From: Epilithonimonas caeni DSM 17710
GTDB lineage: Bacteria > Bacteroidota > Bacteroidia > Flavobacteriales > Weeksellaceae
Assembly: GCF_000426465.1 (NCBI RefSeq)
Contig: NZ_KE384527.1
Location: forward strand, 334,543 to 398,542
DNA: 64,000 nt
Direction: 5' to 3'
Shown: positions 16,234-19,968 of the stretch, one piece after another
Position numbering within the stretch: the first letter of the stretch is position 1
Layout of the letters: each line of letters opens with the position of its first letter
Position numbers and translations under genes: made by a program
Notes under the pieces: model-generated
The model's database searches: none
What the model was told of the DNA's origin: nothing
Seen by the model: the letters and a program-made list of their open reading frames with translations, nothing else

Positions 16234-18174
16234 ATGCTAAAAATTACACTTCCTGATGGCAGCATCAGAGAATATGAAGGAGCAGTTACTCCACTACAAG
16301 TTGCGCAAAGTATAAGTGACGGTTTGGCAAGAAATACCATTTCTGCAATCGTGAACGGAAAACAGACAGAAGTAGAAACCACGATAACGGAGGATTCTAC
16401 AGTGCAACTTTTGACGTGGAATGACGATATGGGTAAAAAAGCATTCTGGCATTCGTCAGCTCACTTATTGGCACAGGCAATTATGGAATTTTATCCTGAT
16501 GCAAAACTGACAATCGGGCCTGCAATCGCGAACGGGTTCTACTATGATGTGGATTTCGGAGGAAAGCCTTTGTCGGAAAATGACTTCGAGAAACTGGAAA
16601 AGAAAATTTTGGAAAACGCTAAGAAAAACTCCACTTTCAACCTTCGTGAAGTTTCTAAAGCTGACGCATTAAAAGAATATGCAGATAACCCTTTCAAAAC
16701 TGAACTGATTGAGAATCTGCCTGATGGCGAAATCACTTTCGTAACCCACGATAACTTCACAGACCTTTGTAGAGGTGGTCACATCCCTTCAACAGGAATT
16801 GTGAAAGCTGTGAAAATCCTTAACGCAGCCGGAGCTTACTGGAGAGGCGATGAGAAAAATCCTCAGCTGACAAGAGTTTACGGCATCTCTTTCCCTAAAC
16901 AAAAAGAATTAACTGAATATCTTGAAAGACTTGAAGAAGCTAAAAGAAGAGACCACAGAAAACTAGGAAAAGAACTAGGAATTTTTGCTTTTTCTGAAAA
17001 AGTTGGACAAGGTCTTCCACTTTGGTTACCAAAAGGTGCAGCACTTAGGAAAAAATTAGAGAATTTCCTTTCTGTAGCTCAGAAAAAACAAGGTTATGAA
17101 TTCGTAATTTCTCCGCATATCGGAGCAAAAGAATTATATGTAACTTCCGGACACTGGGACAAATACGGAGCAGACAGCTTCCAACCAATCAAAACACCTA
17201 ACGAAGGTGAAGAATTTTTGTTGAAGCCAATGAACTGCCCTCACCACTGTGAAATCTATAAGGCTCAACAATGGTCTTATAAAGATCTTCCAAAACGTTA
17301 TGCAGAGTTTGGAACCGTATACAGATATGAGCAGTCCGGAGAATTACACGGTTTAACAAGAGTTCGTGGATTTACTCAGGATGATGCACACCTTTTCTGT
17401 ACGCCTGACCAATTGTTACAGGAATTTGAAAAGGTAATTGACTTAGTTTTGTACGTTTTCGGTTCACTTGGATTTGCTGACTTTACGGCTCAAATCTCAT
17501 TGAGAGACCCGGAAAACAGGGAAAAATATATCGGTTCCGATGAAAATTGGGAGAAAGCGGAAAACGCCATCGTAACTGCAGCTAAAGCTAAAGGCCTTAA
17601 AACTGTCACTGAATATGGCGAAGCAGCTTTCTATGGTCCTAAGCTTGACTTTATGGTGAAAGATGCTTTGGGAAGAAGCTGGCAGTTGGGAACAATTCAA
17701 GTAGATTACAACTTACCGGAAAGATTTGACCTTTGGTATAATGGTAATGATAATGAGAAGCACAGACCAGTGATGATCCACCGAGCACCATTTGGTTCTA
17801 TGGAGAGATTCATTGCGATTCTGATTGAAAATACAGCGGGAGATTTCCCACTTTGGTTGAGTCCGGAACAGTTTACGATTTTGCCGATCAGTGAAAAGTA
17901 TGCAGATTATGCAAAAAAAGTTTCAGAATCATTGGAAATTCACGATATTTGCGGATTGATTGACGACAGGAATGAGAAAACGGGTAAAAAAATCCGTGAT
18001 GCCGAGTTGAAAAAGTTACCATTTATGCTTATTGTAGGTGAGAACGAAGAAAACAACGGTACGATTTCTGTAAGAAGAAGAGGCGAAGGCGATTTGGGCG
18101 AAATGACGATCGAAGCATTCATCACCTATTTCAAAGAGCAGGCAAAACCGGCATTTGAACTGGGCTCAAACTAA
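16234..18174 (+). CDS. thrS: Threonine-tRNA ligase
   Basis: Charges tRNA-Thr with threonine. 646 residues, close to the 642 of E. coli. In order: TGS domain (1-60, [16 protein letters not shown]), the SAD editing domain ([10 protein letters not shown] with the HxxxH motif, [17 protein letters not shown]), the class II catalytic core with zinc Cys in [11 protein letters not shown], motif 2 in [31 protein letters not shown], zinc His in the [16 protein letters not shown] region, and the anticodon-binding domain. Both zinc-site and editing residues look intact. It starts the conserved thrS-infC-rpmI-rplT order. Confidence 0.97.
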
Positions 18175-18216
18175 CAAAACCTTATTAAAGAATATTAATT
18201 TTAAAATTTTAAAACC

Positions 18217-18780
18217 ATAGCACTAAAAAGAAACAACAGCAGAGGTCCGATGAGACGTCCAGTTCAGGAAGACCTTCATCAAATCAACGATAAGATCCGT
18301 GCAAGAGAAGTACGTCTTGTGGGAGATAACGTTGAACCAGGAGTTTATCCATTATCAAAAGCTTTAGAGATCGCAAGAGAACAAGAGTTGGACCTTGTGG
18401 TTATTTCTGATAAAGCAGAGCCTTACATTTCCCGTATCCTGGATTATAAAAAATTCTTGTACGAGCAAAAGAAGAAGACCAAAGAACTAAAAGCGAAGCA
18501 AGTAAAAGTTGTTGTAAAAGAGATCAGATTCGGACCTCAAACCGATGATCACGATTACGAATTCAAGAAAAAGCACGCTGAAAAATTCTTGGAAGAAGGT
18601 TCTAAGCTGAAAACTTATGTTTTCTTCAAAGGACGTTCTATCATTTTCAAAGACCAGGGAGAGATCCTTCTTTTGAAACTGGCTCAAGATCTGGAACATG
18701 TTGGAAAAGTAGACCAGCTTCCTAAACTTGAAGGAAAAAGAATGATCATGATGATGAGTCCTAAAAAGGCTGCTAAATAA
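18217..18780 (+). CDS. infC: Translation initiation factor IF-3, likely AUA start
   Basis: Binds the 30S subunit and checks the start codon-initiator tRNA pairing. From ATG 18250 the protein has 176 residues: N-terminal domain ([18 protein letters not shown]), linker helix ([18 protein letters not shown]) and C-terminal domain ([21 protein letters not shown]). The frame runs upstream without ATG, GTG or TTG to a stop at 18202, encoding [10 protein letters not shown] just before that ATG. Flavobacterial IF-3 proteins, as I recall, begin MA(L/I)-x-N-x-RG, so ATA at 18217 is the likely start, giving 187 residues. infC of other bacteria uses AUU in the same way for autoregulation. If ATG 18250 is used, the basic N-terminus is lost. 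Confidence 0.88.
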
Positions 18781-18805: not shown

Positions 18806-18836
18806 AAAACCTCGAATTAATTTTTGAGGTTTTTTT
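18806..18836 (+). terminator. Rho-independent terminator after infC
   Basis: AAAACCTC pairs with GAGGTTTT across a 12-base loop and a T run follows. It separates infC from rpmI-rplT. Confidence 0.85.
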
Positions 18837-18849
18837 GTATAGCTGGTAT

Positions 18850-19314
18850 CTAATCTTTATATGGAAACATCATAACAGTTTCAGATGAATCGAAAAAAGA
18901 TGAAGCAATTAAATGTTTAGCTACAAATTTTTTATTTTCTCCCTCCAATGGATATTCAAATCCTTTGTACAAAGCATCTCTATTATCGTACAAATTAATA
19001 TTACATTTGAATCCTGTATAGAAACCTCTAATTTCATCAAAAATTTTCTTAGCTTCTTCTTTGTTATTAACTTTAACTTTTAATAATACGTTTATATTAC
19101 GAAGCATTATTTGTGGATTTAAATCCAATTCAAGTACTTCAAATTTTTCAGTTTTTAATTTTTCATTAATATCAGGTGCATCTTTCATTAATTCAGCATC
19201 TTCAATTCTTACTCTTTCATTGTGTTTAGAAACTTGATGTCGTTTATATAAATACCAAATTATAATTATTGAAAAAAGAATTATAAATATTTTTAAACAG
19301 CCATTTTTTTTCAT
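18850..19314 (-). CDS. Unknown single-pass membrane protein, 154 residues
   Basis: Not recognised. One N-terminal membrane helix (residues 8-23, LKIFIILFSIIIIWYLY) after a short basic start, then a soluble domain of ~125 residues with alternating helices and strands. No lipobox fits (C6 is too early). It reads against the thrS-infC-rpmI-rplT cluster and splits it in two. The base composition is more A/T rich than the genes around it and the wobble positions are A or T heavy, which would fit later arrival. No promoter box is seen on its upstream side. Confidence 0.65.
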   Translation of the reverse strand: MKKNGCLKIFIILFSIIIIWYLYKRHQVSKHNERVRIEDAELMKDAPDINEKLKTEKFEVLELDLNPQIMLRNINVLLKVKVNNKEEAKKIFDEIRGFYTGFKCNINLYDNRDALYKGFEYPLEGENKKFVAKHLIASSFFDSSETVMMFPYKD

Positions 19315-19791: not shown

Positions 19792-19872
19792 TTTTTATAA
19801 ATCTATATTCGGTTTATAAGAATTCAAAACAAATTCAACAATTTAACCCTGAAATGGAGCCACTAAGTGAAT

Positions 19873-19900
19873 GATAAATGATAAATGATAAATGATAAAT
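19873..19900 (+). repeat. Heptanucleotide tandem repeat, 4 x GATAAAT
   Basis: Four exact head-to-tail copies of GATAAAT in the 177-base rpmI-rplT spacer. Just after it, GATTTATAATCAATCATC and ATTATCAATCAT continue a similar A/T pattern and could pair with it in RNA. Similar loose copies lie before cysS (about 57335-57355). Confidence 0.8.
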
Positions 19901-19968
19901 GATTTATAATCAATCATCTATTATCAATCATAAATCTTCCGCACATTTCAAAAAAAACAATTTAAATT

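Follow-up and report, generated by a model that had tools for sequence, protein, structure and literature searches.

The infC gene, which encodes initiation factor IF-3, is known to begin with rare codons in several bacteria. A published account describes IF-3 as destabilizing initiation complexes formed at codons of this kind, and infC as self-regulated with an ATT start in E. coli and an ATC start in Streptomyces, where the start is misannotated in most Streptomyces (PMC5472188). Our E. coli control (MG1655) has an annotated ATT start for infC with GGAGG before it. The AUA codon was assigned to the same gene in S. aureus by Ribo-Ret ribosome profiling in a 2026 study, which predicts an extended Shine-Dalgarno (SD) sequence there and calls infC feedback only likely (PMC13009471). 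Listeria infC has a fixed non-canonical start, ATT, said to be experimentally confirmed (PMC13068326), and in Yersinia, peptides mapping ahead of the annotated start of infC are reported, with ATT as start (PMC3091656).

The locus described here lies in a 64,000-nucleotide stretch of an Epilithonimonas genome, which was analyzed as a whole and is referred to as the window. It resembles E. coli infC in having a near-cognate codon proposed as the start of the IF-3 gene, with thrS directly upstream, but the codon is AUA rather than AUU and no tetramer of the GGAGG type precedes it; the IF-3 feedback described for E. coli would apply in the window by analogy. S. aureus infC shares the codon but differs in its predicted extended SD and in its phylum, and Streptomyces and Listeria, also of other phyla, differ in their codons. 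Since S. aureus also uses AUA, the codon is not unique, as opposed to the initial annotation, which regarded it as an unusual variant of the feedback logic. Rare infC starts are known in E. coli, Streptomyces, Listeria and S. aureus, and we therefore view the locus as adding a new lineage to those with this established device. Among the open-licence papers listed in our searches, we found no report of a non-AUG infC start, AUA or other, in Flavobacteria or Bacteroidetes. What is new within that literature is order-wide, codon-swapping conservation in Flavobacteriales-like genomes, which are reported to lack SD. The Bacteroidetes ribosome is described as not using SD, and rpsU of many Flavobacteriales as carrying an extended SD (PMC6847099, PMC9976891).

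The features of the locus are collected in Table 1. Downstream of the TAA at 18202 the infC frame reads AAT TTT AAA ACC ATA(18217) GCA CTA AAA AGA AAC AAC AGC AGA GGT CCG ATG(18250), and this reading bears out the initial claim that between TAA and ATG no codon but ATA belongs to the bacterial start set. A mechanical caller restricted to ATG, GTG and TTG returned infC as 18250-18780 (176 aa), the shorter product that automatic annotation had been expected to choose.

Table 1 Features of the thrS-infC region in window coordinates
Feature	Position	Strand	Evidence or remark
Proposed AUA start codon of infC	18217..18219	+	sole start-set codon between stop 18202 and ATG 18250
infC, IF-3, 187 aa if AUA-started	18217..18780	+	TIGR00168; solved IF-3 structures
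Codons 2-11, basic N-terminal tail	18220..18249	+	absent if ATG 18250 is the start
First in-frame ATG, probably an internal Met	18250..18252	+	context score, sparse in relatives
In-frame TAA bounding the infC frame upstream	18202..18204	+	
A/T-rich leader ahead of the AUA start (thrS-infC gap), no SD-like tetramer	18175..18216	+	
thrS, upstream neighbour, ATG start	16234..18174	+	TIGR00418, 694.7 bits
Terminator-like stem-loop 3' of infC	18806..18833	+	11 pairs, T run; consensus match only
154-aa ORF between infC and rpmI	18850..19314	-	no NCBIfam match

The genome contains one infC match. Its product matches TIGR00168 over the full length of the model (176 bits, curated cut-off 60, profile positions 2-169 of 170) and 11 distinct sequences of solved structures at E <= 0.001 (best 9e-39), all of them named initiation factor 3. 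In the product started at ATA the model sets in at residue 18, and the ATA and ATG products score 176.0 and 176.3 bits. Because the model begins there and scores the two products alike, the upstream residues are best described as a lineage tail. The conserved basic N-terminus that had been noted before the first ATG therefore stands as a basic tail conserved in the lineage, but it lies outside the universal IF-3 domain.

To place the codon among relatives, we used the best 80 of 585 matching places in named genomes, which with the window genome gave 81 loci. Among those best 80, the nearest were Epilithonimonas and close strains (96-98% identity), followed by Chryseobacterium, Kaistella and others, so that Epilithonimonas, at 98%, replaces Chryseobacterium, the genus first taken as reference. 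Alignment of the upstream codons, as initially proposed, placed ATA in the open infC frame in 81/81 loci (the window and the best 80 of 585 named); three loci escaped one search pattern, and ATA was read directly in each. Together with 8 loci from the window's family (f1) and 26 from another family of the same order (f2), these formed a set of 115 distinct infC loci; the duplicates removed before counting (7/301 loci) were all f1 loci identical to named ones. Taking as the site the first start-like codon with Ala as the next residue, we found 113 ATA and 2 ATC among the 115 loci, counts that are not independent because the loci are related. Codon 2 is Ala in 122/122 ATA loci, although Ala is part of the selection rule, and it is GCA in 116. 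In the remainder of the 122 ATA-start infC genes, Ile is encoded by ATT 776 times, by ATC 494 times and by ATA 157 times (n = 1427; ATA 11.0%), and an ordinary Ile position would thus seldom be ATA. The observation is confirmed: ATA 18217 is in frame, and the codon is commoner than chance among related loci.

We then compared distinct single-nucleotide codon variants on the two sides of the site in 46 Chryseobacterium-type, 23 Kaistella-type and 11 Epilithonimonas-type loci. Downstream of ATA, synonymous and nonsynonymous variants number 3/0, 12/5 and 3/0, respectively; upstream they number 2/18, 5/21 and 1/5, with 1, 6 and 4 changes to stop codons. Among all possible changes, the synonymous share expected is 0.15-0.23. 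Missing stops downstream of ATA carry no weight as evidence because the frame was picked as open. Upstream, an in-frame stop stands at codon -5 in 71/122 ATA loci, and 109/115 loci have a stop within 14 codons of the site. A longer protein begun at an upstream canonical codon was considered and rejected, as only 1/115 loci (L181, TTG) has such a codon in the open frame. By this measure, conservation of the coding type begins at the ATA codon. These comparisons strongly support an infC start at AUA, and AUA 18217 is very probably the main one.

Control genes at the same loci start with ATG wherever they were matched: rplT in 58/58, rpmI in 58/58 and thrS in 30/30. There were 82 control sources (the 81 loci and the window stretch, which repeats L001, so that the window genome is counted twice), of which 24, 24 and 52, respectively, were unmatched. 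The thrS pattern admitted only M, L, V or I as first residue; those for rplT and rpmI left it free.

A broader draw, from the order, matched the family in 145/146 genomes and provided 116 loci, 109 of them distinct and 105 resolved; the name Flavobacteriales for this draw rests on the named relatives (best 80 of 585). Start labels were ATA 55, ATC 24, CTG 22, ATG 2, TTG 1 and GTG 1, with 4 loci unlabelled (n = 109). These labels, and the others used for the IF-3 tree, were assigned by the same first-start-like-then-Ala rule or, failing that, by our own reading (26 manual entries, 5 without call; f4 was set to ATG), and many labels beyond the two main families are our own reading. Near-cognate starts are kept in relatives on both scales, with 113 ATA and 2 ATC among the 115 loci, and with ATA, ATC and CTG making up 101/105 resolved order loci against 2/105 for ATG. 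The four loci left out of the 105 include one, L186, with an ATG near the domain, and the sole TTG label (L170) is weak, lying six codons before the domain. All 14 labels in f46 were hand-set to ATA, although an ATT or ATC next to it may be used instead; leaving this family out gives ATA 41, ATC 24 and CTG 22, or 87/91 resolved loci. The f46 genomes (e.g. L204, L213) are small, mostly about 0.6 Mb, and ATT usually stands right before ATA, sometimes with ATC between them. In 22 loci of f34 and f37 (e.g. L122, L139, L228), infC appears to start at CTG.

On a tree of the IF-3 domain (149 rows, 144 of them labelled, taken from the order, class and named sets), at least 16 start-codon changes are needed, although the tree is poorly resolved, with 61/143 inner branches open. 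Well-supported branches force at least two gains or losses of the CTG label. The class draw (20 loci) contains ATG starts in f4 (6) and f6 (1), TTG in f3 (5) and f5 (2), ATA in f7 and f9 (1 each) and a mixture in f8 (4). A phylum draw, in which the family was matched in 146/148 genomes and many infC starts are ATC, ATT, TTG or ATG, was kept out of the counts, several of its families having SD-like sequences. In its distant families f10-f33, infC often starts with ATC or ATT behind such sequences; two f15 genomes of this draw (G044, G094) gave no infC match.

Across the order, then, the sequences show the non-ATG class to be kept while the codon itself shifts among ATA, ATC and CTG. Such swapping, with ATG rare, fits selection for a codon that IF-3 rejects. 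We consider it somewhat more probable than the contrary that infC in this order, which is reported not to rely on SD, keeps an IF-3-discriminated codon through turnover of AUA, AUC and CUG with avoidance of ATG, that feedback would act via the codon alone with no more than a leader rich in A and weak in structure, and that the ATG-start families f4 and f6 lost or replaced the loop. If so, f4 and f6, being of the same class, would constitute a natural experiment.

In the mechanism we propose, infC of this Epilithonimonas-like bacterium would be translated from AUA 18217, yielding an IF-3 of 187 residues that carries a short basic tail. IF-3 would reject initiation complexes on near-cognate codons such as AUA, and its own message would therefore be translated well only while free IF-3 is scarce, closing a negative feedback loop. 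By analogy with E. coli and Streptomyces, we infer initiation with fMet, IF-3 discrimination and feedback at infC; we also infer the size of the effect of the AUA start. If AUA is the main start, feedback by IF-3 is likely, and so is the whole explanation, an AUA-started infC under negative IF-3 feedback. The initial interpretation is supported overall, its AUA start by comparison and its feedback step by that analogy.

A start at AUA could also act as a fixed brake that sets IF-3 output low, without feedback. In favour of such a brake, weak start codons reduce the output of other genes: S. aureus cvfC1, ccpN and citZ reporters starting from AUU or AUA are reported to reach, in poor medium, about 10% of the AUG level (PMC13009471). 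However, the product of infC is itself the factor described as rejecting codons of this kind, and the identity of the codon changes while its class stays; we consider this explanation unlikely.

How the ribosome finds the AUA codon was approached through the leader. None of GGAGG, AGGA, GGAG or GAGG occurs upstream of ATA 18217, and ribosomes would therefore have to locate the site by a purine at -3 and by a leader that is A-rich and weakly structured. A strong SD backing the weak codon is thus absent here, a feature that in our view is not strictly defining. The mean unpaired probability is 0.71 around ATA and 0.61 around ATG 18250, both above the gene-start median of 0.53. The context score of ATA is 1.74 compared with a gene-start median of 3.95, and 22% of gene starts score lower. 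Context scoring was discarded as a pointer to ATA: several neighbouring non-start codons outscore it because the whole leader is A-rich, so that nearby leader codons are not separated and the scores speak only against ATG 18250. They therefore exclude ATG better than they pick out ATA. A purine occupies -3 in 98/105 placed infC starts of the order draw (among which f46 locus L227 may sit at the wrong ATA) compared with 76% of the 46 genes of the window. This agrees with published work on F. johnsoniae, in which A(-3) is reported to be preferred (PMC6847099). C occupies -1 in 44/105 of these starts compared with 0% of the 46 window genes. As the composition at -3 to -1 differs between lineages, a special signal at these positions was rejected and no element is claimed.

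The use of ATG 18250 was evaluated by asking whether relatives have an ATG at all before the IF-3 domain. There is none in 55/81 loci of the window and named set (best 80 of 585 named), in 5/8 f1 loci and in 26/26 f2 loci, and the f2 loci all lack GTG and TTG there as well. The first ATG after the site falls at least 18 residues inside the domain in 94/122 ATA loci, and at least 145 residues inside in 61 of those. When GTG and TTG are counted too, 78/122 ATA loci have a canonical codon before the domain, most often, in 45, a single residue ahead of it. In 16/122 ATA loci, including the 11 of Epilithonimonas type, an ATG precedes the domain by 11 codons. This last group could mean that Epilithonimonas makes use of both starts, AUA giving the conserved form and ATG 18250 a shorter second form, but the context of that ATG is poor (score -8.57, lower than all 46 window gene starts), it is missing in most relatives and it could simply be an internal Met, which makes dual use improbable. 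That ATG 18250 is the true start and the upstream stretch an untranslated leader conserved for some other reason is very improbable, for although a standard caller chooses this ATG, an SD-like AGAGG stands shortly upstream and its product retains the entire TIGR00168 domain, the upstream stretch varies in a protein-coding manner, the domain lacks a preceding ATG in most of the loci just counted, and the context score falls below that of every window gene start. The AGAGG lies at 18241-18245 (+), within the codons AGA GGT and 4 nt before ATG 18250, and may mislead SD-based gene callers.

With AUA as the main start, the start of an essential gene would be corrected across a large group, and a textbook feedback loop would extend to bacteria whose initiation does not depend on SD pairing. 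This raises the question of whether start-codon discrimination alone can suffice for autocontrol in such bacteria. Lineages with ATA, ATC, CTG, TTG and ATG within one class offer ready-made comparisons.

Regarding the neighbourhood, a scan of the window against Rfam at gathering scores returned no match and a tRNA search of the window found none. The genes run in the order thrS-infC-rpmI-rplT, but infC and rpmI are separated here by an 813-nt gap that contains an opposing ORF (Table 1). This gap reaches at least 400 nt in 21 of the 54 measurable loci among the 81 (window and best 80 of 585 named), and given its wide variation the spot may collect inserts. Between rpmI and rplT, at 19870-19903, the motif AATGATA occurs in nearly five head-to-tail copies.
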